Of a stretch of 36,358 nucleotides of DNA, positions 241-27,107 are shown piece after piece (positions within the stretch are counted from its first letter, which is position 1; each line of letters opens with the position of its first letter). Below the pieces are notes generated by a model, which saw only the letters and a program-made list of their open reading frames with translations, searched no databases and was not told the origin of the DNA. The position numbers were made by a program, and so were the translations under genes. This stretch comes from Bacteriovoracaceae bacterium (GTDB taxonomy: Bacteria > Bdellovibrionota > Bacteriovoracia > Bacteriovoracales > Bacteriovoracaceae): the NCBI GenBank assembly GCA_016784965.1, contig JADHTQ010000046.1:1-36358 (forward strand), written 5' to 3'.

Positions 241-3200
241 GTGATTTCAATCGTACTGGTGGACGCTGAGGGGAAAATTCTCCAAAACGTGGTGCCGGAG
301 TTTCGGGCGACAAACACAAATAACGGCAATTCATACGGAGCGTGTCCTGCGACTGATGTAAACGGCTTCACCCAGTGTACTTTAAAATCTACTGTTGCTG
401 AAAACAAGCAGTTGTGGATTGTATCGCCGGAAGCGTTTTCTGGAGGCAGCGTCCAGTTTATTCCCAATGAAGCAACGGATCTGCGTTTTAGAGTAAATCC
501 TGCAGCTTCCATGTTGGTGGGTGAGACTATGGCGGTCGATCCCGTGGTGGAAATTTTAGATATACTTGGCAATCAAATTGTATCCAGTATTGGTTATATT
601 GAGTTAGAGGCGTTTACTGACTCTAGCTGTACAGTGCCAGCTACTGGAGTACTATATGTTGATCAAAACCCCCTCTCTCCCGGCGGCATAGCCACTGAAG
701 TGACCTTCACCGGAATCGGCTACTCCAAGCAAGATGACATCTACTTAAAAGCAAGTACCCCCGATCTAAACTCAGCTTGCTCTTCTCTAGTGGCCGTCAG
801 GCAGTTCGTTGATCACGACGTAAGTGGCATCGTGGGGACTAATACAGTAGCAAACGGTAGTAACCCCTCGCAGATTACCATTACTCTAATTGATACTCTC
901 GGTAACCCCATGTTTGGAACGGTTCCTACCTTTATTGCAACGGACACAGGTCATACTAATATCTACGGGGACTGTACCCCAGCTGATACTCAAGGTATAT
1001 CTCATTGCCTCTTGAAGTCCACCAAGGCCGAGGAAAAAACCATATCTCTTAAGACCCCTGCGGTTATGACTGGAAATACAGTTACCTTTGAGCCAGGCCC
1101 TGTGGCAACTACTACTTCAAGCATAACGGGAACGACTGATGTCGTCGCCGATAATTTTGAAATATCATATATCACAGTTACCCTTTTAGATGCTTACAAC
1201 AATCCGATTAAAGATTTTACTCCCACATTTGCTGCAACTGGTAGCGAAAATACCCTGATAGGGTGTACACCAACTAGCAACACCGGGGCATCTACGTGTT
1301 CTTTAAAATCAACAAAAGCGGAGGATAAGGTTCTATCCATTGTTAACCCATTCATTCTAACGGGAGATACCGTAACATTTATAAATGGGCCACTGGCCAA
1401 GCTAGATTACTCTACTGCTCCAAGCTCACAAGGGTATGCCGACATCCCATTAGAGGTTGCACCTACACTACGGGCCCTGGATGCCTTCGACAACCCCGTT
1501 TCTGCACCAAATGTCAGTGTAACACTAGCTCCTTATACTAATGCTGCATGTACCATTGCTTCATATGGAACATTGAGTGCTGACAACATTACAGTCACAA
1601 CAGTAAACGGAATTGCTACCTTTAGTAACGTAAAACACTCAAAAGCTGAAACTCTTTATATAAGAGCGATTAGTGGTGGGTGGGCAGAATGTTATGGCCC
1701 AATTAATATTGGTGCAAGGCCAGCACTAACATTTTCAAGCGACGCTTTTGTTGAAGCGGCCACTAATATCGGTGCCATGTCTGGCAGTCTAACTATCGAC
1801 TTAGTAGGCACTACCTTCAGTGGCAGCAACTCCAGTGATTTAATCGCTGCAGGTAAGGTAACTGCATCCAATGTACCAGACGGATTAACTGCTGTAGCGA
1901 TCAAAGTTAGTGATACCCAGCTAACTATCTCACTAAATGGAAATGCTACAGAACACGGCAATGGCGCCAATATTGATAACTTGGCCTTTGAGTTTTTGGA
2001 TACCGCCTTTACAGATCTAACTGCCGATCTTGTGTTAGACCATAATAGGGATGACTTGAAGATAGAGTTTGATAACGCTTACACCTTAGCTTATGCAGGT
2101 AGTAAGTTTTCAGAGGTTATAGCAAATACCGGTAATACTGAAGATACCATCGTGCTATCACTTGCGGGGACCACCTTTACAGGTGCTCAATATGAGGACT
2201 TTGTGGCCGCAGGCAAGTTAAATATATTAAACCTACCAGACGGAATGACCTTTGTGGCCATTAAAGATAGCAACACTCGAATGACTGTCTCAATTACAGG
2301 AAGCGCAAATGCTCACGCCAATACTAATGATGTCACAAACCTCACCCTCCAGTTTCAAGATAACGCTTTTGCTAGCGGATCAGCTGCCGGAGTATTAGGT
2401 GCTAATAAGGATGACTTAGAAATTGATTTTGAAGGCCCAGCAGTTCTAACTTATAGCGAAGCTGCCTTTACTGAGGTTCTGGCCTCTGATGGATCAATTG
2501 CAGGAAGCATCACTATAACTCTAACTGGTGATACATTTTCTTCACCCTTTGTATCAAGTAACGTAACGGCAACAAATGTGCCAGAGGGTCTAACTTTTAA
2601 TATTGCCAACTTAAACAGCACTACCATGATAGTGTCTCTTAGTGGCCATGCCTTAGCGCACACAGATGCAGATGACGTAACTAATATGCAGATTTCATTT
2701 GCCGATGCCACATTTGTCAATAACACTGTGGCAGCTAACGTAGAAAATGCCCAAAAAGATGACCTGCTAGTAGATTTTATGGGCCCTGCCATTTTGGATT
2801 ATGGTCCTGGACTATTTAATGAATCCCTAGCAAACGATGGTAGTGTCAATGAATCTTTAACCATAACATTAGACGGAGATACCTTTGCAGCGAGTATTGC
2901 AGGAAAAATTTCAGCATCGAATGTACCTACAGGCCTAAGTGCTGCCTTTACTAGGTTGAGTGATACACAAATCAAAGTGGATCTCACAGGAAACGCCAGT
3001 AATCACTTGAGTGCAGATAGCATTAATAATTTAGGCATCGCCTTCATTGCCTCTGCATTTGTGAACATTACAGATATTGCCAACATAACCAATTCAGTGA
3101 AGTCGGATTTAGGTGTGCAGTTTAGGGACTATCCCTCAATTGCCTATGACTCCACCGTTTTTGATGAGAGGTTTGAAAACGATGGCGCTATCACCAATAC

Positions 3201-6200
3201 TTTGATTATCACTCTAGATGGAGACGTCTTTGCACCTGATTTAGCTGGAAGAATTAATGTGACCAATATCCCCGCAGGCCTCACTGTAAGTCTGATAAGA
3301 GATAGTGACACTCAAATCAGTATGTCTCTAACAGGCAACGCAACAAACCACAGCGATGAAGACGACGTTAGTAACTTAGGGGTTACTTTCTTAGCATCAG
3401 CTATTGTCAACGTGTCAGACATCACTCAGGTGGCAAATTATAATAAAAATGACCTAAGCGTTGACTTTGATAACCCAGTAGGACTGGCCGTCAGTGACGA
3501 AGGTGGAAGCACTACTAGTGGAGTGACAAGTGAAGATGGAGGTAGTGCTACATTTGGTTTTGCCCTAGCAGCAGAGCCAATTGCAGATGTCACTATTTCG
3601 TTTACCAGTAGCGACACTTCAGAAGGGACACTAAGTGTGTCATCTTTAACTTTTACTCCTGCAAACTGGAGTAGTGCTCAGACCGTTATTGTTACAGGTG
3701 TCGACGACTCAATTAGTGATCCTGACCAAGCCTATAGTATAGATTTTAGCGCCATCACCAGTGCTGACTCTAGGTACAATGGTCTAACACCTCCAAGTAT
3801 CTCAATGACCAATACTGATAACGAGGTGCCAGGGATTACTGTTTCGGCAATAAGCGGTGACGTAGATGAAACTGGAACGACTGCTACCTTTACTATTAAA
3901 CTTGATTGTCTGCCAGGTGAGGATGTCACCATAGGCATCTCAAGCAGTGATTTGACCGAAGGTACTGTAGCACCTGCTAGCTTAACTTTCACTAGCGCCA
4001 ACGGCACCACAGCTCAAACTATAACTGTCACAGGTGTTAATGATGACCTATCTGATGGTGATCAGCTGTTTAATATAATAACAGCAGCGGCCAGCAGTAG
4101 CGATCTTGGTTACAATGGAATGAACCCAGACGATGTGGCGGTTAATAATATTGATGACGACGTAACTGTCGCCATCAGTGCAATCTCTGGAAATACATCT
4201 GAAAGTGGAGACAGTGCTACCTTTACAGTCTCCCTTGATACTGAACCAATTGCCGATGTGACAGTATCCTTTTTTAGTAGTGATACCACTGAGGGAACTC
4301 TTGGCACCAGTCAGCTGACATTTACTCCTGCAAACTGGAATGCACCTCAGACGGTTACCGTTTATGGAGTTGATGATCTAGTAAGTGATACGGATCAAAC
4401 CTATTTTATAATTTTTGATGCTATTTCAAGTTCAGACTTTAGATATAGTGGTATCATCCCAGAAAGCATCGAAGTTACCAACATAGATAATGAAGTTCCT
4501 GAGATTATAGTTTCTCAAATCAGTGGAGACGTTAGCGAAGGTGGCGACACGGCTACCTTTACAGTTGTGTTGGGGTGTCTACCTACCTCTGATGTAACCA
4601 TCGGACTAACCAGTAGCGACCTAGGTGAAGGGACTATATCTCATGAAAGCTTAACCTTTACAAATACAAACGGGATGACTGCTCAAACTGTAACTGTTAC
4701 AGGGGTTGATGATGAGTTAGTTGATGGAACAATTACTTTCAATATTGTAACAGCAGAAGCAAGTAGTGATGATACAGGATACAATGGAATTAATCCTGAC
4801 GATGTGGCGGTAAATAATCTTGACGATGAAATTACTATAGGTCTCTCCATTAGCGCAATCTCAGGACCTACTTCAGAAACTGGAGACTCTGGAACCTTTT
4901 CTGTAGTGTTAGAATCAGCACCAACAGAAGATGTTTCAATCACCTTTATAAGTAGTGATTTATCAGAAGGGCTCTTGGGACTATCGGAGCTAACCTTTAC
5001 TCCAGATAACTGGAATGCACCACAAGTAGTTGTTGTAACCGGTGTTGATGATGATATTAGTGATGGTGATCAAACCTACTATGTCGTTTTTTATGCTTCT
5101 GAAAGTCAAGATGAAAGGTATCATGGAATCATACCTCCAAGTATTTCAGTAGTTAATGTTGACGATGAAACACCAGGCATTACAGTATCAGAAATTAGTG
5201 GTGACATAACAGAAAGTGGCGATACGGCTACCTTTACCGTGGTTTTAAATTGTCTGCCAAATGATGAAGTAACTATTAATTTAAGTAGTAGCGATTTAGG
5301 TGAGGGGACCGTTTTACCTGCTACTCTTACATTTACATCCACAAACGGTACTTCACCACAAACAGTAACAGTAACCGGAATCGATGACGACATTATAGAT
5401 GGTACTCAAATTTTTGATATCATAACTGCAGCTGCAACTAGTAATGACGAAGGTTACAATGGGATAAACCCAGCAGACGTATCCGTTAACAATTTAGACA
5501 ATGATGGTACTATTGGAATCTATGTGGGTCCAATTTCTGGACCAACTTCTGAGGCCTCTGCAACGGCCATCTTTTCAGTGGTACTTTTATCAGAGCCAGC
5601 AGCTGATGTGATAATTGATCTAAGCAGCAGTGACACTGGTGAGGGTGTAATGCTTCCATCAAGCTTGACCTTTACTCCAGAAAACTGGAATGCAGGCCAA
5701 GTTGTGACCGTTTATGGGTTAAATGATAATATTCAAGATGGTGACCAACAATACAAAATCATCACAGCACCTGCTATCAGCTTAGATCCTCGCTATAATA
5801 ACTTTAACGCTGAAGATGTAGATGTTATTAACCTAGATGATGATAGCTGGGGTATTCAAGTTAGTGAGATTAGTGGTGAAACATCTGAAGGTGGAGATAC
5901 GGCAACATTTACTATTGTGCTAAATTCAGGGCCTACCGCGGACGTGCTAATTACCTTTAGTAGTAGTGACGAAACAGAAGGCACTGTTGAACCATCGTCT
6001 TTGACATTTACTTCAGACAACTGGTTCTCACCTCAAGAAGTAACGGTAACCGGTGTCGACGATACCTTGCAAGATGGTAGGCAAGTCTACAACGTAGTAT
6101 TTGAGCCAACCTCTAGTACAGACGATCGTTACAATAATATTTTACTAGCAAGTGTTGCTGTTACCAACCGAGATGATGATTACTCACACGGCTTCTTATT

Positions 6201-7941
6201 AACTGAGGTGACAGGTAATACTGCAGAGACTGAGACTGCTAGCTCGTTTACCATCCAACTTACATCGGAGCCCTCTGACGATGTTGTAATAAGTGTAACC
6301 AGTAATGATGAAACAGAAGGGATCGTGAGCGTTTCATCAGTGACCTTTAACTCCGATGACTGGTCATCTCCTCAAACTATAGTAATAACAGGTGTGGATG
6401 ATGATCTTGAAGATGGTAATCAGTACTACACAATAATCTTAGGAGTAGCAGCAAGTAACGATAGTAATTATAATGGACTAAAACCAAACAATGTGTCCCT
6501 TTATAACTACGATGACGACACACCAGGAGTTACCGTCTATCCGAAAAAAGGCCTAGCAACAACTGAGGCAGGTGGTGAGGCCAGCTTTACCGTAGTGCTA
6601 AATACTCCTCCAACTGTCGATATCGTTATTAACTTGAGTAGCTCAGATACCAGTGAGGGTACAATCGATGCTTCAAGTTTAACCTTTACTCCAGATAACT
6701 GGGCAGCAGAACAAACAGTTGTTATCACAGGTGTCGATGATAATAAAAGAGATGGTAACAAACCATACAAAATTAGACTTGAGCAAATTTCTAGTAGTGA
6801 TCAAAAGTATAGTGGTATCAACCCAAGTGATGTGTATGTGACAAACTACGATGACGAAACACGCGGTATTAAAATTGGTCCACGTAGACTTAAAGTATCA
6901 GAAAATGGAACCACTGCAGACTTTTCGGCAAGGCTAACTTCCAGGCCAACTGCAGATGTAACATTTTCTCTAACCAGCACAGACCTCACTGAGGGTACTA
7001 TTTCAGTTTCATCTTTGACCTTTACTCCAGATAACTGGAATGCTCCTCAAATTGTAACCGTTACCGGTGTTGATGATGATATCAGAGATGGTACTAAGAA
7101 ATTTAAAATTAAGTCCGGTAAGGCAACTAGTGCAGATAGCAGGTACAACAACTTAAGGGCAAAATATGTGAAAGTCTATAATTATGACAACGATAAACAT
7201 GGCTTTCACATAACTCCAAGGCCTCATCATGATAGACCATTGATTACAACTGAAGATGGTGGTACAGCAGAGTTTCGTATAAAACTGCATTACGCACCAA
7301 CTCAAGATGTTACCATACCAATTAGTAGTAGTGATACCAGCGAGGGTACTGTAGATAAATCTAGCATAACCTTTACTCCCTCTAACTGGAATCAACAACA
7401 AACTGTAACCATTACAGGTGTTGATGATCAAGTAAATGATGGTAATAAAAACTACAAAATTCTATTTGGTAGAGCAACTAGTAGTGATAACAGTTATCAT
7501 CATCACTACATCAGGTATATCAATGTAAGAAACATTGATAATGATGACGCTGATTTTGTTATCAGCCAAAGACCTCACTGGCACTACTGGCGTTACTGGA
7601 ACCGTTGGTCTCATATGACACCAGTATTTGTAGTGAGAGAAAGCTCTGGAACTTGTGAAACCTTTACAGTTAAGTTGTCCAAAGCACCTACACATAATGT
7701 AACATTTAGCGTTCATAGTAGTAATGATAATGAGATAACGGTTAGTCCAGAAGTAGTAACGTTCACTCCACAAAATTGGAATGTACCACAAACAATTACG
7801 GTACAAGGTGTTGATGATGGAGTTAGAGATGGTGACCAACATATCAAAATTTATTTTGGTAAGGCCACCAGTGGCGACAACCGCTATCACAACAAGTGCC
7901 CAAAAAGTTTTAGGGCCAAAAACGAAGACGACGACGATTAA
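241..7941 (+). CDS. giant multi-repeat surface/secreted protein (Ig-like, beta repeats, Calx-beta-like repeats)
   Basis: 2566 codons from GTG 241, which has a weak GAGG site eight bases upstream. Residues ~1-490 hold several Ig-like (Big_1/invasin-type) domains, each with a pattern like VTLLDAYNNP, then a Cys pair and LKST(K/V)AE. Residues ~495-1080 are five ~117-residue beta repeats ending in a DDL.(I/V).F motif. Residues 1081-2566 are thirteen Calx-beta-like repeats marked by LTFTPxNW and VTGVDDDxxDGxQ, whose acidic loops suggest Ca2+ binding. The C-terminus becomes basic and His/Trp-rich, then ends in an acidic tail. No signal peptide, transmembrane segment or sorting signal is visible. 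The first Ig-like domain appears to begin upstream of GTG 241, at about base 155, so the true start is earlier or the 5' end is damaged. The likely role is an adhesin or envelope structural protein, inferred from domain type only. It is convergent with the M20 gene, with a terminator between. Confidence 0.85.
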   Translation: MISIVLVDAEGKILQNVVPEFRATNTNNGNSYGACPATDVNGFTQCTLKSTVAENKQLWIVSPEAFSGGSVQFIPNEATDLRFRVNPAASMLVGETMAVDPVVEILDILGNQIVSSIGYIELEAFTDSSCTVPATGVLYVDQNPLSPGGIATEVTFTGIGYSKQDDIYLKASTPDLNSACSSLVAVRQFVDHDVSGIVGTNTVANGSNPSQITITLIDTLGNPMFGTVPTFIATDTGHTNIYGDCTPADTQGISHCLLKSTKAEEKTISLKTPAVMTGNTVTFEPGPVATTTSSITGTTDVVADNFEISYITVTLLDAYNNPIKDFTPTFAATGSENTLIGCTPTSNTGASTCSLKSTKAEDKVLSIVNPFILTGDTVTFINGPLAKLDYSTAPSSQGYADIPLEVAPTLRALDAFDNPVSAPNVSVTLAPYTNAACTIASYGTLSADNITVTTVNGIATFSNVKHSKAETLYIRAISGGWAECYGPINIGARPALTFSSDAFVEAATNIGAMSGSLTIDLVGTTFSGSNSSDLIAAGKVTASNVPDGLTAVAIKVSDTQLTISLNGNATEHGNGANIDNLAFEFLDTAFTDLTADLVLDHNRDDLKIEFDNAYTLAYAGSKFSEVIANTGNTEDTIVLSLAGTTFTGAQYEDFVAAGKLNILNLPDGMTFVAIKDSNTRMTVSITGSANAHANTNDVTNLTLQFQDNAFASGSAAGVLGANKDDLEIDFEGPAVLTYSEAAFTEVLASDGSIAGSITITLTGDTFSSPFVSSNVTATNVPEGLTFNIANLNSTTMIVSLSGHALAHTDADDVTNMQISFADATFVNNTVAANVENAQKDDLLVDFMGPAILDYGPGLFNESLANDGSVNESLTITLDGDTFAASIAGKISASNVPTGLSAAFTRLSDTQIKVDLTGNASNHLSADSINNLGIAFIASAFVNITDIANITNSVKSDLGVQFRDYPSIAYDSTVFDERFENDGAITNTLIITLDGDVFAPDLAGRINVTNIPAGLTVSLIRDSDTQISMSLTGNATNHSDEDDVSNLGVTFLASAIVNVSDITQVANYNKNDLSVDFDNPVGLAVSDEGGSTTSGVTSEDGGSATFGFALAAEPIADVTISFTSSDTSEGTLSVSSLTFTPANWSSAQTVIVTGVDDSISDPDQAYSIDFSAITSADSRYNGLTPPSISMTNTDNEVPGITVSAISGDVDETGTTATFTIKLDCLPGEDVTIGISSSDLTEGTVAPASLTFTSANGTTAQTITVTGVNDDLSDGDQLFNIITAAASSSDLGYNGMNPDDVAVNNIDDDVTVAISAISGNTSESGDSATFTVSLDTEPIADVTVSFFSSDTTEGTLGTSQLTFTPANWNAPQTVTVYGVDDLVSDTDQTYFIIFDAISSSDFRYSGIIPESIEVTNIDNEVPEIIVSQISGDVSEGGDTATFTVVLGCLPTSDVTIGLTSSDLGEGTISHESLTFTNTNGMTAQTVTVTGVDDELVDGTITFNIVTAEASSDDTGYNGINPDDVAVNNLDDEITIGLSISAISGPTSETGDSGTFSVVLESAPTEDVSITFISSDLSEGLLGLSELTFTPDNWNAPQVVVVTGVDDDISDGDQTYYVVFYASESQDERYHGIIPPSISVVNVDDETPGITVSEISGDITESGDTATFTVVLNCLPNDEVTINLSSSDLGEGTVLPATLTFTSTNGTSPQTVTVTGIDDDIIDGTQIFDIITAAATSNDEGYNGINPADVSVNNLDNDGTIGIYVGPISGPTSEASATAIFSVVLLSEPAADVIIDLSSSDTGEGVMLPSSLTFTPENWNAGQVVTVYGLNDNIQDGDQQYKIITAPAISLDPRYNNFNAEDVDVINLDDDSWGIQVSEISGETSEGGDTATFTIVLNSGPTADVLITFSSSDETEGTVEPSSLTFTSDNWFSPQEVTVTGVDDTLQDGRQVYNVVFEPTSSTDDRYNNILLASVAVTNRDDDYSHGFLLTEVTGNTAETETASSFTIQLTSEPSDDVVISVTSNDETEGIVSVSSVTFNSDDWSSPQTIVITGVDDDLEDGNQYYTIILGVAASNDSNYNGLKPNNVSLYNYDDDTPGVTVYPKKGLATTEAGGEASFTVVLNTPPTVDIVINLSSSDTSEGTIDASSLTFTPDNWAAEQTVVITGVDDNKRDGNKPYKIRLEQISSSDQKYSGINPSDVYVTNYDDETRGIKIGPRRLKVSENGTTADFSARLTSRPTADVTFSLTSTDLTEGTISVSSLTFTPDNWNAPQIVTVTGVDDDIRDGTKKFKIKSGKATSADSRYNNLRAKYVKVYNYDNDKHGFHITPRPHHDRPLITTEDGGTAEFRIKLHYAPTQDVTIPISSSDTSEGTVDKSSITFTPSNWNQQQTVTITGVDDQVNDGNKNYKILFGRATSSDNSYHHHYIRYINVRNIDNDDADFVISQRPHWHYWRYWNRWSHMTPVFVVRESSGTCETFTVKLSKAPTHNVTFSVHSSNDNEITVSPEVVTFTPQNWNVPQTITVQGVDDGVRDGDQHIKIYFGKATSGDNRYHNKCPKSFRAKNEDDDD
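1723..3480 (+). repeat. five tandem ~117-residue protein repeats
   Basis: Coding repeats of the giant protein, residues ~495-1080. Each copy runs: hydrophobic-x-Y, F.E, G(S/D)(L/I)TI.L.G.TF, NVP.GLT, SDTQ(I/L)..SLTGNA..H, a D(D/S)(V/I).NL..F strand and K.DL.(I/V).F. Two of the copies have lost GNA or alter the DTQ signature. I do not recognise a named family. The copies are diverged at DNA level, so duplication is not recent. Confidence 0.75.
3481..7938 (+). repeat. thirteen tandem Calx-beta-like repeats
   Basis: Thirteen copies counted by the VTGVDDxxxDGxQ signature, averaging 114 residues. Copies 1-6 alternate between two subtypes and form three super-units at 3481-4161, 4162-4830 and 4831-5508 (681, 669 and 678 bases). 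Odd copies carry NW and RY.G..P.SI. Even copies carry a single Cys in CLP, NG in place of NW, and GYNG.NP.DV.VNN. Copies 7-13 are singles. Copies 10-13 are enriched in Lys, Arg and His. Confidence 0.85.
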
Positions 7942-15814: not shown

Positions 15815-15867
15815 ATTCTTTTTAGTTTCTTCCCAAGTAATATAAGCAAGTGCAAAAAGGGCAGGTC

Positions 15868-18450
15868 ATGGAACAAAAATGGGTTGTATTAAAATTTGGG
15901 GGTACCAGTGTATCCAATCTGGATAATTGGGGAGTAATAAGGTCGGTTATAGAGCAGAGGATTGCCGAGGAATACACTCCAGTAGTTGTCTGTTCAGCAA
16001 TTTCTGGTATTTCAAATCTATTAGAGCAAGTAATTAAAAATGCCATAAACGGAAAATATCAACAAACCCTAGATAAACTACAAAACAAACACCTCAAGCT
16101 GTGTAGAGAGTTTAAGATAGATTTTGAAAAAACTATTGGAGTTGACTTTACAAATTTGGTTGACCTTTTGTTGGGGGTATCACTACTTAAAGAAATTGGT
16201 CCCCGTATCCAGGCACAAATCATGTCTGTTGGCGAGCTGATGTTGACCAAAATGGCCCATCGTTTTCTTGTAAATAACGGTGTTGACATTGTTTGGCAAG
16301 ATGCAAGAGAGTGTATGCATGCCGCCACTAACGATTTCTCGGCGGCCCATTACCTTTCAGCACATTGTCAGTTTGATCCGCGCGATGATGTAAAAAAATT
16401 ACTACAACCCCACAAGGCCATTATTACCCAAGGATTTATCGCCAGAGATAATCGTGGTGACACGGTTTTGCTTGGTCGTGGTGGGTCAGATACTTCTGCA
16501 ACAACTTTTGCAGCTTTACTGCAAGCGTCAAGTTGTGAGATCTGGACTGACATTCCGGGCATATTTACTACTGACCCAAGAACCACTCCCGAAGCATTTT
16601 TACTAAAAGAACTTGACTATGATGAGGCACAAGAGCTTGCCTCAACGGGAGCAAAAATCATCCACCCCAAGTGTATCGCTCCGGCCTATAAATATAATAT
16701 CCCCATTAAAATAAAATCGGTGTATCACCCCCTTCTTGAAGGTACTCAAATTACCAACTTCGGTCACAGCAATGCCCCTAGAGTAAAAGGCATTGCCATG
16801 AAAAAAGATGTTAAGCTTATTTCTATCGAAACGGTTAATATGTGGGGGCAATCGGGATTTTTGGCCGACCTTTTTTTATGTTTTAAAAACCATAAAATAT
16901 CAATTGATTTAATTTCAACTTCAGAAAGCAACATTACAGTGAGCTTAGATACTCTGCCAAACTCTTTAGACAAACACCTCATGGAGCTATTATTGAGTGA
17001 TTTAAAGAAATTTGGAGATGCCAAGTTAATTGGTCCTTGCGCTTCAATAGGGCTTGTTGGTAAAAAAATTAGAACAATTTTACATCAATTGACACCAGTT
17101 TTTGAGCTATTTGAAGAACATAAAATTCATCTAATTTCTCAAGCTGCAAATGATCTAAACTTGACAATTGTGGTAGATGAACAACAGGCACAAAGATTGT
17201 TACCAAAGCTGCACTCTCAACTTTTTAAAGAGGGGGCATCTAACATATCGATGTTAGGTCCCACTTATAAAGAGTGCACTCAAAACTTGGATGCTGATGT
17301 TGCTTCCACTTACTCTACCTGGTGGAGCAATCAAAAAGAGGTCCTAAAGGCCATGGATGTTTCAGACGTGCCAGTATATGTATACAACCAACAAACTATC
17401 AAAGACTCCATCAGCGAGCTAAAACAACTAAAGGCAGTGGATAAAATATTCTATGCCATGAAGGCCAACTTTAATCCTCAAGTTCTTGAGACCATATACA
17501 ATCAAGGGATTGGTTTTGAGTGTGTTTCAACAGGAGAAATTAAAGCTATTTTGCGTTTGTTTCCAAAGATTTCACCACAAAATATTATCTTTACCCCCAA
17601 TTATGCTTCATATGATGAGTACAAATATGCTCTGGAGCAAAATGTATATGTTACCATTGATAATCTACACCCGCTTAAACATTGGAAGGAGTTGTTTAAA
17701 AACCGCTCACTTTTTATTCGCCTAGATCCTGGTATGGGGGCCGGCCATCACAAGTTTGTCAAAACTGCTGGGATGCAATCGAAGTTTGGAGTTTCACCCG
17801 AAAACATTCCTTCTCTTCTAGAAATGGTAGATGAGCTAAAAATTAAAGTAGTAGGTCTACATGCCCATATTGGTAGCGGGATTTTTTCTAAGACCAAGTG
17901 GAGCGAGACGGCCTTATTTTTACACTCTTTTACATCTGTGTTTAAAGATGTAAAGATTTTGGATCTTGGAGGGGGACTTGGAGTTTCTGAGCGAATAGGT
18001 CATGCAGCAATAGACCTGGTGGCCATTGACGATCATTTAATGCAGTTTAAAAAAATTGCTCCCAATATAAAAATTTGGATTGAGCCCGGTCGCTTTGTTG
18101 TAGCAAACTCTGGAGTAATGTTAACTAAAGTCAATCAGATTAAAACCAAAGGACAAAAGCGCTACATCGGTGTAAATGCAGGTATGAGTTGTTTTATAAG
18201 GCCTATGCTCTATGGTTCATATCACGAAATTGTAAACCTAACTCGTCTTGAACAGGGACCTTCAATGGTTGCCGATATTGTAGGGCCAATTTGTGAGTCT
18301 GGTGACACCATAGGTTTTGCGCGCAAATTGCCCGAGACGACAGAGGGAGACATTCTTTTAATCAATGCAACAGGGGCATACGGATACGCCATGAGTTCTG
18401 GCTACAACTTAAGAGATAAACCTCGCGAACACTTTATCAAGGCGAATTAG
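15868..18450 (+). CDS. bifunctional aspartate kinase / diaminopimelate decarboxylase
   Basis: 860 residues from ATG 15868 (GTG 15850 is in frame but has no ribosome site). It fuses the first and last enzymes of lysine synthesis. The N-terminal aspartokinase has KFGGTS at 9-14, GFIARD, LGRGGSDTSAT, WTDIPGIFTTDPR and GAKIIHPK, then tandem ACT domains to ~455, the usual site of lysine feedback. The C-terminal fold type III decarboxylase (~475-860) has the PLP lysine in YAMKAN (K532), ECVSTGE, LDPGMGAGHHKFV, GLHAHIGSG, LDLGGGLG, EPGRF, GPICESGD and ATGAYGYAMSSGYN. Both halves look complete. Such fusions are known in a few Gram-negative groups, including Xanthomonas-type bacteria. Its end overlaps the convergent small gene by 14 bases. 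Confidence 0.95.
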   Translation: MEQKWVVLKFGGTSVSNLDNWGVIRSVIEQRIAEEYTPVVVCSAISGISNLLEQVIKNAINGKYQQTLDKLQNKHLKLCREFKIDFEKTIGVDFTNLVDLLLGVSLLKEIGPRIQAQIMSVGELMLTKMAHRFLVNNGVDIVWQDARECMHAATNDFSAAHYLSAHCQFDPRDDVKKLLQPHKAIITQGFIARDNRGDTVLLGRGGSDTSATTFAALLQASSCEIWTDIPGIFTTDPRTTPEAFLLKELDYDEAQELASTGAKIIHPKCIAPAYKYNIPIKIKSVYHPLLEGTQITNFGHSNAPRVKGIAMKKDVKLISIETVNMWGQSGFLADLFLCFKNHKISIDLISTSESNITVSLDTLPNSLDKHLMELLLSDLKKFGDAKLIGPCASIGLVGKKIRTILHQLTPVFELFEEHKIHLISQAANDLNLTIVVDEQQAQRLLPKLHSQLFKEGASNISMLGPTYKECTQNLDADVASTYSTWWSNQKEVLKAMDVSDVPVYVYNQQTIKDSISELKQLKAVDKIFYAMKANFNPQVLETIYNQGIGFECVSTGEIKAILRLFPKISPQNIIFTPNYASYDEYKYALEQNVYVTIDNLHPLKHWKELFKNRSLFIRLDPGMGAGHHKFVKTAGMQSKFGVSPENIPSLLEMVDELKIKVVGLHAHIGSGIFSKTKWSETALFLHSFTSVFKDVKILDLGGGLGVSERIGHAAIDLVAIDDHLMQFKKIAPNIKIWIEPGRFVVANSGVMLTKVNQIKTKGQKRYIGVNAGMSCFIRPMLYGSYHEIVNLTRLEQGPSMVADIVGPICESGDTIGFARKLPETTEGDILLINATGAYGYAMSSGYNLRDKPREHFIKAN

Positions 18451-22087: not shown

Positions 22088-23293
22088 TTAAATGAGGTCT
22101 ATAAAACTATCAACTTTTAGCTGCATTTCTTTAAACTCAACTTGTGCACTACTTTGCAAAGTTATCCCCCCACCGGCCTTATAACTTAGAGTTTGGTTTT
22201 TTAGATTAACTTCCGCTGAGCGAATGTTAATTGAAGAGGCCAATATAGATTTATACAAAACAATTGTTGAACCACAATAAAGGCCGCGTGTATAATTTTC
22301 TAGCTCATAAAGTATGTTGCCAACTTTCTTTTTTGGAGGTCCCATAATACTGCCACCAGGAAATAGTGACTTAATAATGTCGTTTAAGTTTATGTGATAT
22401 CCAAGATCCACAGCGATAAGTGAATACTGATGTAAAATGCCTGGAACAATTAGCGGTGCTTTAAGCTTTACAACCCTAGAGCGCGGAAGATCTATTGCAG
22501 ATAAATCGTTGCGCAAAAGATCGGTAATCATAAAAAGCTCAGCTTCATTTTTTTTACAATTGGTAAGCTTCTCCCAAGTTTTGCTAAATTGGGAGAAGCT
22601 ATCCAAAGGCATGGTGCCTTTGATTGGCATTGACCACAGTTTGAAGTGTTTAGAGTGTTTTTTGATTTGAAACAGACACTCAGGAGAATTACTTAGATAC
22701 ATCACCTCGAGTGGTCCAATAACGCTGGCGTGGGCATATGCAGAGCAATTGGCGTAATTTTTAAACAACTTGGAAATCAAAATGTTTTCTGCATTTGGTG
22801 CTTGAAGGTCAAACTGGTAGGGAAGGGTTAGGTTTAACTGATAACAGTTGCCAGCAAGTAAATGTTCATATGCTTTGTTAAAAATATTTTCATAGTGGTC
22901 AAATGTAGGAGCGCTTAGTTTTTTTAAAGTGATCTCCCCCTTAACTTTAGGCGGCACATATGGCGTAACTTGGCAGTATTGAAGCTCAATGGCCAATAGG
23001 TCATCATCTTTAATATTACCTAAATTGTGCAAATACAGATGTCCCAGCTCATAAAACAAATGCAGTACAATGGGAGTATTAAAAGTTTGTTTGAAATTTA
23101 GTTTACTAAAATGTTGACGTAGCTCATCCAGTGAAAATTTGCTTTTTTTTCCTGTAAGTAAATTGAGTCTATAGTGTTTATAATAGGCAAAGGCAGATGA
23201 TGTATTATGAAACTTTAAAAATTTTATGCCTTTGTTGCCTGTTGCTACAATGGTATAAATATTGTCAATTTCTGGTGAATTGTTGTGAGTCAT
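22088..23293 (-). CDS. pabB: aminodeoxychorismate synthase component I
   Basis: 401 residues from ATG 23293; a TTG at 23326 is also in frame and the ribosome site is weak for both. It converts chorismate to aminodeoxychorismate for folate synthesis with an amide-donating partner (PabA), which is not in the window. The chorismate-binding domain is seen from ~150: PIKGTMP, where Lys distinguishes PabB from anthranilate synthase (PIAGT); AELFMITDLLRNDLS; LFPGGSIMGPPKKK; TRGLYCGS; NIRSAEV; YKAGGGI. There is no fused lyase (PabC) domain. The start lies inside the end of dnaB (29-base overlap). Confidence 0.88.
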   Translation of the reverse strand: MTHNNSPEIDNIYTIVATGNKGIKFLKFHNTSSAFAYYKHYRLNLLTGKKSKFSLDELRQHFSKLNFKQTFNTPIVLHLFYELGHLYLHNLGNIKDDDLLAIELQYCQVTPYVPPKVKGEITLKKLSAPTFDHYENIFNKAYEHLLAGNCYQLNLTLPYQFDLQAPNAENILISKLFKNYANCSAYAHASVIGPLEVMYLSNSPECLFQIKKHSKHFKLWSMPIKGTMPLDSFSQFSKTWEKLTNCKKNEAELFMITDLLRNDLSAIDLPRSRVVKLKAPLIVPGILHQYSLIAVDLGYHINLNDIIKSLFPGGSIMGPPKKKVGNILYELENYTRGLYCGSTIVLYKSILASSINIRSAEVNLKNQTLSYKAGGGITLQSSAQVEFKEMQLKVDSFIDLI

Positions 23294-24629
23294 TATTGTA
23301 TTTAGAGTCGTTTGACAGTTGTTCAAAGCTGGTATAACGCCCTACCCATGCAAGTTTAGCAGTGCCATTTTCGCCACTTCTATTTTTACATACTATAATT
23401 TCGGCCACACCTGGATCTTTTGAATTCTTGTCATAAAAATCATCGCGGTAGATCATAATGACGATATCAGCATCTTGTTCAATTGAGCCAGATTCTCTAA
23501 GGTCAGAAATCAGAGGTCTCTTTTCAGTCCTGGATTCAACTCCTCGATTTAGCTGAGAAAGAGCAAGAATCGGGCACTCCAACTCTTTGGCCAGAGATTT
23601 GAGCCCTCTGGACATTTCAGAAATTTGTTGTTCTCGGTTGGGGTTATTGCTGTGGGGTCTAAGTAGTTGTAGGTAGTCAATAACGACTAGACCAAGGCCC
23701 CTTTCTGCTTTGATTTTACGACAATGACCCTGGATGTCAATTATGGTTGTAGCACCTGAGTCATTTATAAAAATTGGAAATTTAGAAAGCTCACTGACAG
23801 AATTGTTAATGTTTCTAAGGTCTGTATCTAAAAAGTTTTTGGTTCTAAGCTTAGTAGAATCAATTTTGGCCCGAGATGAGAGCATCCTCATACTGAGCTC
23901 CCGGGCCAGCATTTCCAAAGAAAAAATGGCCACTGGAGCTGCTGAGTGTTCACACGCTGAAACGGCAATATTTACGGCCAAAGAAGTTTTTCCCATACCG
24001 GGTCTTGCCGCCAAAACAATTAGTTGACCAGGCTGCATTCCCAGCAGGTAACGATCAAGTTCTGGGTATCCACTACTGATACCTTCTATTTCACCATTTT
24101 TGCGCGCCGGAGCGGCCAAGCTTTTTAGATTATCTTTTAAACAATTGTTAAGCATCCGCATACCGCCTACGCGGGCCTTACTGGTGAGCTTAAAAAATTG
24201 TGCCTCCACATCTGAAATAAAATCTTGTGTGTCACCAGAAAAGCTCATTCCAGTATCTGCGACTTTCATCGCTGTGCGAATAATATTTCGCATGATGGAT
24301 TTATCTTTAATAATTTTGGCGTATTGGTAAATATTAGCAGCAGATGCTTGGTCCTCAACAATCTCTAAAATTGTAGCTTGCCCCCCTGTCATCTCTAATT
24401 GACCTTTATCAGAGAGCTTAGAGCAAACTGTAACGTAGTCAATCGGCATGTTTTCGATAGAGAGCTCTCTGACGCATTCAAAGATTAGACCGTACTGTGG
24501 ATGATAAAAATCTTCTTTTACAAGTGATAGATCGGAAACTTCATTAATCGATGTCCCATCAATTATTAAACAACCAACAAAAGATTTTTCTGCCAAAAAA
24601 TCGTGAGGGAGCTCTTTTACATGAGACAT
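23265..24629 (-). CDS. dnaB: replicative DNA helicase
   Basis: 454 residues, normal length and no intein. The DnaB N-terminal domain (~5-105) begins with LPHDFLAEKSFVGCLI. The RecA-like domain follows, with Walker A ARPGMGKTS (208-216), the catalytic Glu in FSLEM (E239), Walker B LGLVVIDYLQLL (D318), the SQLNRGVE sensor and DLRESGSIEQDAD near the arginine finger region. It unwinds DNA at the replication fork. Neighbours (rplI upstream, 31 bases) follow the widespread rpsF-rpsR-rplI-dnaB order. Its 3' end overlaps pabB. Confidence 0.97.
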   Translation of the reverse strand: MSHVKELPHDFLAEKSFVGCLIIDGTSINEVSDLSLVKEDFYHPQYGLIFECVRELSIENMPIDYVTVCSKLSDKGQLEMTGGQATILEIVEDQASAANIYQYAKIIKDKSIMRNIIRTAMKVADTGMSFSGDTQDFISDVEAQFFKLTSKARVGGMRMLNNCLKDNLKSLAAPARKNGEIEGISSGYPELDRYLLGMQPGQLIVLAARPGMGKTSLAVNIAVSACEHSAAPVAIFSLEMLARELSMRMLSSRAKIDSTKLRTKNFLDTDLRNINNSVSELSKFPIFINDSGATTIIDIQGHCRKIKAERGLGLVVIDYLQLLRPHSNNPNREQQISEMSRGLKSLAKELECPILALSQLNRGVESRTEKRPLISDLRESGSIEQDADIVIMIYRDDFYDKNSKDPGVAEIIVCKNRSGENGTAKLAWVGRYTSFEQLSNDSKYNNDSQQFTRN

Positions 24630-24660: not shown

Positions 24661-25278
24661 TTATTTCTTTGCTTCTGTTTTTGTTTTTTCAACTTTAGCT
24701 TTTGGTTTTTCGGCATTAGTGTCTTCTGCAATAGCTTCCTCGGGATCTGTGGCCTCTGCTTTGGTTTTCTTTTTCTTCTCAGAGGCACGTTTTGCTGCGG
24801 CTGCTTGCTTTGCTTTTTCCTCTTGGGCCTGCTTGGGGTCCATAGCTACTTTTACATTAAAAACAGCTTCAACGTCAGTAAAGACTTTTGCTTTCACTTC
24901 AAAAGAGCCTAAAGTTTTAATGGGTTTTTCAATAGAAATTTGACGCCTGTCAATTTCTACTCCTTTTTCAGAAAACTCTTTGGCCAACTCGGTGTTTGTA
25001 ACCGTTCCAAAAAGTCTCCCGTTGCCACCCACTTTTTTAGTAAGCTCTAACGTTTGGCCATCAATTTTCTTTTTGATTTCTAGGGCCTTATTTTTTTCTT
25101 CAGCAATTTTTAAGGCGAGCCTTCTTTTGTTGTCTTCAAATTGTTTTTTATTAGTTTCATCTGCTAGGACAGCAAAATTATTGGGAATCAAATAATTTCT
25201 AGCGTGGCCTTTTGAAACATTAACCATCTCTCCTACATTGCCTAAAGTAGAAATGTTTTCTGTTAATATAACTTTCAT
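24661..25278 (-). CDS. rplI: ribosomal protein bL9 with extended C-terminal tail
   Basis: 205 residues against the usual ~150. Residues 1-~147 are a standard L9: MKVILTENISTLGNVGEMVNV, SKGHARNYLIPNNFA, the long central helix and GGNGRLFGTVT in the C-domain. Residues ~148-205 are an added low-complexity tail of Lys, Ala, Glu and Thr (for example RASEKKKKTKAEA). It binds 23S rRNA at the L1 stalk base. The start overlaps the stop of the upstream membrane gene (ATGA). Confidence 0.96.
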   Translation of the reverse strand: MKVILTENISTLGNVGEMVNVSKGHARNYLIPNNFAVLADETNKKQFEDNKRRLALKIAEEKNKALEIKKKIDGQTLELTKKVGGNGRLFGTVTNTELAKEFSEKGVEIDRRQISIEKPIKTLGSFEVKAKVFTDVEAVFNVKVAMDPKQAQEEKAKQAAAAKRASEKKKKTKAEATDPEEAIAEDTNAEKPKAKVEKTKTEAKK

Positions 25279-26306
25279 GTATTATCTCCTTCACTTTTAT
25301 TATTATTATTTTTTTTAAAAAATTTTCTGAAATTTATCCACATATCAAATACGCCGATCAGGGCCAAGACTTTCCAGGCCATAATAGTGGTAAATACCAG
25401 CAACATGGTTCTAAAGAACCTAAAAATTCTAAGGTGAGTTAAAAGGTCTAAATAAATGCCTACTCCTTGAAAAAAATAAAAAATTCCCAGGGAGTAAAGT
25501 AGGTTGCCGCCAATAATTGGCCCGAACTCTCCGATGATGTATTCTCCTCCAAGAAGAAGTACCAAAGAGACAATTAAAGGCCAAACAAAGATTTCTGGAA
25601 CCCTAAAGTGGATAAAATCTTTGGTTAAATACTGGTAATGGATTTTTTTTCTCCATACTCGGCCATTTCGCAAAACCATAAACAGGTTTGGCCAAAGCCC
25701 GATAAAAACACTTATAAAAATTGTTGCGGGTCCCCAGTATAATATCTCTTTTGCAATATCTTTGGGGTTTGCAAATAGGTCTTGCAGCACTCTAGCATCG
25801 TTGCCTCCACCTTTTAAAAAACTTGGATTTTGCGTTTTAAACTGCATAATTGCAGAAGTGATGATCTCTTCAAGTTGACCGAGCAGAGATTTTTCACTAA
25901 TGATTGCAATTAAAAACACAATGCCAAACGTTATACTAACAAGTATAAGGCCTGTTTTGACAAACCCGACTTGAGGGTGGATCTGCTTCCATATAATTCT
26001 AGACAAAAGCAGTGCATAAAAAAATGCGACCACAAAAAGTCCGCTAAGCAGTTGTGGTACCTCATACTGAAAGCTCAAAACGGACAATAGTAGAAAGCAA
26101 CCTAGGCCCATTCCCCAAGTCTTTAAGTTGCCGTATAACAAAAAGGCCATAGTTAGAGGAAAGGGTGCAAAAATAGATAGGGGGGCAAACGAACACAATA
26201 AAACACTAGATACTCCAAGAAATATCAAGTGTGCCCAAGTGAGCTGTTTTTCATTCCCACTTTTGTCAAATTTAGTTGTGTCGTCATTCATTCTTATATA
26301 ACTCAT
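25275..26306 (-). CDS. DUF2232 (YybS-like) membrane protein
   Basis: 343 residues with about eight hydrophobic membrane segments (for example LIFLGVSSVLLCSFAPLSIF and FVWPLIVSLVLLLGG) and a charged Lys/Asn-rich end. The topology and the position between rpsR and rplI match DUF2232 family proteins, which occur in this ribosomal-replication cluster in many bacteria. Function is not established. It may begin at ATG 26306 or 26291; neither has a clear ribosome site. The stop overlaps the rplI start by four bases. Confidence 0.75.
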   Translation of the reverse strand: MSYIRMNDDTTKFDKSGNEKQLTWAHLIFLGVSSVLLCSFAPLSIFAPFPLTMAFLLYGNLKTWGMGLGCFLLLSVLSFQYEVPQLLSGLFVVAFFYALLLSRIIWKQIHPQVGFVKTGLILVSITFGIVFLIAIISEKSLLGQLEEIITSAIMQFKTQNPSFLKGGGNDARVLQDLFANPKDIAKEILYWGPATIFISVFIGLWPNLFMVLRNGRVWRKKIHYQYLTKDFIHFRVPEIFVWPLIVSLVLLLGGEYIIGEFGPIIGGNLLYSLGIFYFFQGVGIYLDLLTHLRIFRFFRTMLLVFTTIMAWKVLALIGVFDMWINFRKFFKKNNNNKSEGDNT

Positions 26307-26325: not shown

Positions 26326-26952
26326 TTATTCTGCTATGCGGTTTGTTATATGGCTGACAACACCAATTTGCCTTGCTCTTTTGATGGCAAGATTTGAAAA
26401 GCGTTGGTGCTTACAACTAATTCCTGTAATTCTAGCAGGAGAGATTTTGCCAAATTCATTGATCAACCAAGTAAAGGTCGCAGGATCTTTCCAGTTTGCT
26501 GTAACCTTTTTTGCGGTGAACCAACAGCTTTTTTTGCGTACAAATTTGCGGCGGTCTTTAGAGACATCCATACTGTTTTCGCCGTCTACTAAATCTAGTA
26601 CACTGCCATTGTATTTTTTTGAATAAGGTGTTCTGTAACCTTTAATGATTTTTTCAGTTTCATCATTTTCACCCAATTTAACGGTGAGAGTTTTAATAAC
26701 GACTTCATTAATTTTAAGACGTCTTGCTAACTCGGAGTTACATTTTGAGCATGCTTTGAATATGAAGTATAAAAAGTGTCCTCGGTTTAGGCCTTTAGAT
26801 GTAGCTTGAGCAAGTTTGCGCTCGCCCCAATCATCTTGTAGAACTACTTCACCATTTTCTTCCTTGATGACGCTGTGGATCAATTCAGTTAATGCAGTGA
26901 TTTTTTCATCACCGGTGCCGGATTTTGCCACAATGGCCAATTCATAAATCAT
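26326..26952 (-). CDS. rpsF-rpsR: ribosomal proteins bS6 and bS18 as a single fused ORF
   Basis: 208 codons with no stop. Residues 1-~104 are bS6: MIYELAIVAK at the start, DDWGERKLAQATSK, GHFLYFIFKA, LARRLKINEVVIKTLTV. Residues ~105-131 are a linker (SKKYNGSVLDLVDGENS). Residues 132-208 are bS18: RRKFVRKKSCWFTAKKV, WKDPATFTWLINEFGKI, ARITGISCKHQR, LAIKRARQIG. Normally these are two genes. I translated the junction by hand and it stays open. An ATG at the start of the S18 part (MDVSKDRR) could allow separate S18, but the site before it is weak. Promoter side: AGGAGG five bases before ATG 26952 and a TTGACA at 27039-27044. Confidence 0.93.
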   Translation of the reverse strand: MIYELAIVAKSGTGDEKITALTELIHSVIKEENGEVVLQDDWGERKLAQATSKGLNRGHFLYFIFKACSKCNSELARRLKINEVVIKTLTVKLGENDETEKIIKGYRTPYSKKYNGSVLDLVDGENSMDVSKDRRKFVRKKSCWFTAKKVTANWKDPATFTWLINEFGKISPARITGISCKHQRFSNLAIKRARQIGVVSHITNRIAE

Positions 26953-27107
26953 TTTAACCTCCTGGTCGTGTAAGGCCCCTACCTGTTAAATTGGTGATAA
27001 GAGCGAGATTATTTAGTGCGAAAACATAACACTCTTTCTGTCAAAATACAATTGATCTTCTGCAATCTTAATGCAATTATGCTTTAAAATTATAGGAGAA
27101 AAGTTGT

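Follow-up and report, generated by a model that had tools for sequence, protein, structure and literature searches.

The gene at the centre of this study raises the question of whether a bacterium can make ribosomal proteins bS6 and bS18 as one polypeptide and, if so, whether that chain enters the ribosome intact. To our knowledge, bacterial ribosomal proteins are nearly always separate chains, and S6 and S18 are separate nearly everywhere else. In the window, by which we mean the whole 36,358-nucleotide stretch analysed (contig JADHTQ010000046.1, from a Bacteriovoracaceae bacterium), the first-pass annotation had described a single 208-codon open reading frame with complete S6 and S18 sequences and a stop-free junction, and the reading frame and the Pfam and NCBIfam matches agree with this description (Table 1). 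The frame lies on the minus strand, begins at an ATG (26952) preceded by a strong Shine-Dalgarno sequence (AGGAGG), and ends after 208 codons at a stop (26326-26328). Pfam Ribosomal_S6 covers residues 3-92 (E 4e-19) and Ribosomal_S18 covers residues 149-197 (E 1e-13). The S6 part is matched over its whole domain, with both PF01250 and the NCBIfam equivalog TIGR00166 above cut-off, and the S18 part is likewise above cut-off for PF01084 and the equivalog TIGR00165. Both domains lie in a single frame and neither has a second copy: a family-model search of the genome itself (4.59 Mb, 97% complete) detected no second S6 gene and no second S18 gene. With no other S6 or S18 found in the assembly, every ribosome must draw both proteins from the fusion gene. 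The joint consists of the tail of S6, which reaches to about residue 118, an acidic linker (about 119-134) and the basic S18 N-terminus (135-142), for which the linker of about 27 residues noted earlier was a fair description.

Table 1. Features of the S6-S18 fusion locus (positions in the window)
Feature	Position	Strand	Evidence
rpsF-rpsR fusion gene, bS6-linker-bS18, 208 aa	26326..26952	-	ORF, Pfam/NCBIfam matches, single genomic copy
bS6 domain, residues 3-92	26677..26946	-	Pfam PF01250
bS6 C-terminal tail, residues 93-118 (K-x-Y-[KR]-x-P motif, then SKKYNGS)	26599..26676	-	
Variable acidic linker, residues 119-134	26551..26598	-	46% D/E, pN/pS 0.13, low AlphaFold confidence
bS18 part, residues 135-208, K191 and R194, broken zinc motif CWFT...GISC	26329..26550	-	
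Leader hairpin GCUCUUAUC...GGUAGGGGC, upstream of fusion gene	26975..27004	-	Stem recurs in relatives
GACCAGGAGG, conserved CC beside fusion-gene Shine-Dalgarno	26958..26967	-	
DUF2232 membrane protein gene, downstream of fusion	25275..26306	-	Domain match, conserved order
rplI (bL9), same operon	24661..25278	-	Pfam/NCBIfam matches, conserved order
dnaB replicative helicase, same gene order	23265..24629	-	Domain match, conserved order

Related genomes were searched for rpsF and rpsR as one ORF, with Bdellovibrionota as the scope of the survey. Among 129 genomes of the Bacteriovoracaceae and Halobacteriovoraceae (order Bacteriovoracales), a clade that includes Halobacteriovorax marinus and Bacteriovorax stolpii, 119 gave a match, as did all 73 of the family genomes with a completeness of 90% or more and a contamination of 5% or less. 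As read from the table of matches, both domains lie in a single frame in 112 of the 129 genomes, representing 41 genera; these 112 include two fragments that span the junction, and the carriers include the cultured Bacteriovorax isolates DB6_IX and BSW11_IV. Separate, adjacent S6 and S18 genes were observed in five relatives from four genera (G001, G019, G025, G130 and G028; four of the loci were inspected and G130 was scored from two separate matches), and one matched genome (G106) had an S6 match only. For the other Bdellovibrionota families (about 240 genomes), in whose ranking a fused frame is expected near the top, there was no stop-free two-domain match among the matches listed; as far as these go, S6 and S18 are encoded separately in those families. 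We found no prior description of an S6-S18 fusion in the open-access literature. Because the frame is kept in 112 family genomes and the window's own genome has no other detected S6 or S18, the arrangement is beyond chance: the bS6-bS18 fusion is genuine, lineage-wide and under selection. Of the options offered by the first-pass annotation, that of a true fused subunit is the better supported.

The gene order fusion-DUF2232-L9-DnaB is kept at 72 of 80 relatives' loci. Elsewhere in the window, on the plus strand, an 866-residue ORF (15850-18450) carries amino acid kinase, ACT and PLP-dependent decarboxylase domains and resembles an aspartokinase-diaminopimelate decarboxylase fusion (LysC-LysA), and a 2566-residue ORF (241-7941) with Calx-beta, Big_1, invasin-like and fn3 domains probably encodes a giant surface or adhesin-like protein.

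An AlphaFold2 model built from an alignment of 44 family members (pLDDT 82, pTM 0.77) predicts both domains well, with pLDDT below 50 only at residues 123-140, and the linker is accordingly predicted to be disordered. When the model was used for a fold search of the PDB, the best 50 matches were all S6 or mitochondrial S6-like chains. In E. coli, K60 and R63 of S18 contact C719/C720 of 16S rRNA (PMC4647458), and the equivalent residues, K191 and R194, are invariant in the 44 fused proteins. The bS18 family exists in a zinc-containing C+ form and a zinc-free C- form (PMC9976891). In the window, the S18 motif reads CWFT...GISC and lacks the CxxC ... C set of the C+ form. The zinc cysteines are lost in every fused locus checked (L002-L051 and L100-L179), and the CWFC...C cysteines persist in each of the five separate-gene relatives (L052-L055 and L207) and in most outgroups checked, showing that loss of these cysteines accompanies the fusion.

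The region upstream of the gene is also conserved. A hairpin preceded by CTC recurs ahead of fused genes, and a CC[A/G]GGAG-type motif is present in 85 of 91 leaders. A comparable anchored stem was found in 83 of the 91 leaders versus a mean of 19.7 after shuffling, and with a strict anchor in 71 leaders versus 0.6 in shuffles. The upper stem pairs vary through many pair types, a count that is biased upwards as the stems were selected for pairing. The window leader itself folds modestly better than its shuffles (z -1.25), and an Rfam search with it gave no credible match. S6 and S18 normally heterodimerise before binding rRNA, and the rpsF leader is bound by the S6:S18 heterodimer, with rpsF repressed only by both proteins together (PMC4647458). 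The fusion-gene leader fits this described rpsF leader and is a candidate S6:S18 site. Similar rpsF leaders occur in separate-gene outgroups, and an rpsF leader is apparently shared by the phylum; in several leaders from other families (L058-L070), ACC(A)AAAGGAG comes after a CCTTGCTC...GGGC hairpin.

We hypothesize that the gene product is a tethered S6:S18 heterodimer, the sole source of both proteins, which enters the 30S platform as a unit and autoregulates its own mRNA, and we consider this probable. bS6 and bS18 would be held in one polypeptide by a short, flexible, acidic linker, so that the heterodimer would be preformed, with S6 and S18 supplied 1:1 and folding against each other. The fused pair would bind the S15-16S rRNA platform in a single step, and excess fusion protein would bind the leader of its own mRNA, at the hairpin and the CC at the Shine-Dalgarno sequence, and shut off translation. 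We infer an uncut chain on the ribosome, its assembly as a single unit and a role of the leader as the S6:S18 binding site. Counted against the tethered heterodimer are the five separate-gene relatives, a TAA in the linker of one relative (G026), the modest z of the window leader and its lack of an Rfam match.

The main rival, which we regard as unlikely, is that the chain is a polyprotein whose linker is cut after translation to yield ordinary S6 and S18. Ubiquitin-ribosomal protein fusions of eukaryotes are cleaved after synthesis in this manner, and the linker, which is 46% acidic (D/E) across relatives and predicted to be disordered, would be accessible. However, the linker is variable and has no residue common to all 44 proteins, and no universal cleavage motif; the stretch TPFSKKYxGSVxD is conserved in one clade and absent from the other, and the joint, measured between the S6 tail motif and the S18 cysteine, ranges from 22 to 39 residues. 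The best-conserved element, K-x-Y-x-x-P, in which P109 is invariant and K104 nearly invariant among the 44 fused proteins, is likewise the end of S6 in most relatives whose genes are separate, which argues for a feature of the S6 tail and not a cut site. Where the genes are separate, the S18 N-terminal extension is longer, is acidic in several and ends in the same DKDRR-like stretch. Since both the S6 tail and the S18 extension have such counterparts, the linker may most simply be what remains of the S6 C-terminal and S18 N-terminal ends.

Alternatively, S18 could also, or only, be started within the linker, as the first-pass annotation had suggested, but this seems very improbable. The window linker does contain one in-frame ATG (M128), and 46 of 92 distinct linkers have an ATG; against this, 43 of the 92 lack any ATG, GTG or TTG, M128 has no Shine-Dalgarno sequence, and an internal start with a Shine-Dalgarno match of at least 4 bases, easily given by acidic GAG codons, is present in just 19 of the 92 (the S6 start has such a match in 80 of 92). 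Across 22 independent close pairs, pN/pS was 0.13 for the linker, 0.15 for the S6 domain and 0.05 for S18, and the near equality of linker and S6 domain indicates that the linker is read as protein. Re-initiation at S18 is thus not general. The chance that a sequencing or assembly error removed a stop or shifted the frame is negligible. Metagenome assemblies make up many of the genomes and G026 does show a stop here, yet the frame is intact in 112 genomes from many laboratories, cultured isolates among them, with diverged sequence and purifying selection. These 112 diverged, selected frames refute sequencing error as a general explanation, and with so many independent genomes a base missing at the junction, a concern voiced earlier, is for practical purposes excluded.

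In G026 (L042, G026:C61) a single TAA lies within the linker at the S6/S18 junction, and when an S18 start (ATG, GTG or TTG) was looked for after it, none was found. Its S18 is without zinc cysteines, as at fused loci, and for this reason the locus is most simply explained by misassembly or by a stop that a fused lineage gained later. Three causes are conceivable for the TAA: misassembly, readthrough or a newly split gene. Unless it is a misassembly, it would be evidence that the chain need not be continuous in every case.

As to the origin of the fusion, a tree from five markers leaves G001 and G028 unresolved at its base and groups G019, G025 and G130 with one of the two fused clades. RpoB by itself did not place the separate-gene relatives. 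Constraining all fused lineages, including G026, to one clade gave p-AU values of 0.22 for RpoB, 0.043 for RpoB and RpoC, and 0.098 for five markers, so that one origin or several are possible and a single clade is not clearly rejected. The SecA marker left out G025 and G130, for which the fetched locus was a paralogue; G019, G025 and G130 have two SecA genes each, and the SecA match of every family member, and of G061, breaks at model positions 473-511, as though some 38 residues were absent. Only tentatively, and with rather less than even confidence, we propose that the fusion arose more than once in the lineage, that S18 lost its zinc site on each occasion, and that the tether replaced stabilisation by the zinc ribbon. 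If true, a platform protein pair would have shifted from being metal-stabilised to being tether-stabilised. RimI, the S18 N-terminal acetylase, was uninformative, since it misses the curated cut-off in almost the whole family, whether the genes are fused or separate.

The order Bacteriovoracales includes bacterial predators, and the ribosomes that use the fusion seem to be assembled with S6 and S18 as a permanently joined pair. This natural, lineage-wide link lets the role of the S6:S18 heterodimer in assembly and feedback be tested, along with the need for a fixed 1:1 stoichiometry and the replacement of zinc by a tether, and cultured Bacteriovorax and Halobacteriovorax make the fusion directly testable. 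Annotation tools that expect separate genes may call S6 or S18 missing in such genomes.

Among known systems, adjacent rpsF and rpsR genes with rpsF-leader autoregulation are alike in protein families, gene order, partnership and rRNA-contact residues, and apparently in a leader hairpin with a CC close to the Shine-Dalgarno sequence; the fusion differs in being one polypeptide, whose joint leaves neither the C-terminus of S6 nor the N-terminus of S18 free, and in the loss of the zinc cysteines. A fusion of bL9 to a signalling protein (NCBIfam NF011110), known here by the model's name and matched by the window bL9 below cut-off, also joins a bacterial ribosomal protein to another protein, but one that is non-ribosomal. 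In the ubiquitin-RPS27a and ubiquitin-RPL40 fusions of eukaryotes a ribosomal protein likewise lies within a longer chain; there the partner, which is no neighbour in the ribosome, is removed by cleavage. Finally, the fused S18 is by its sequence of the C- type of bS18, but unlike a zinc-regulated paralogue it is the sole genomic copy, and its cysteine loss tracks the fusion.
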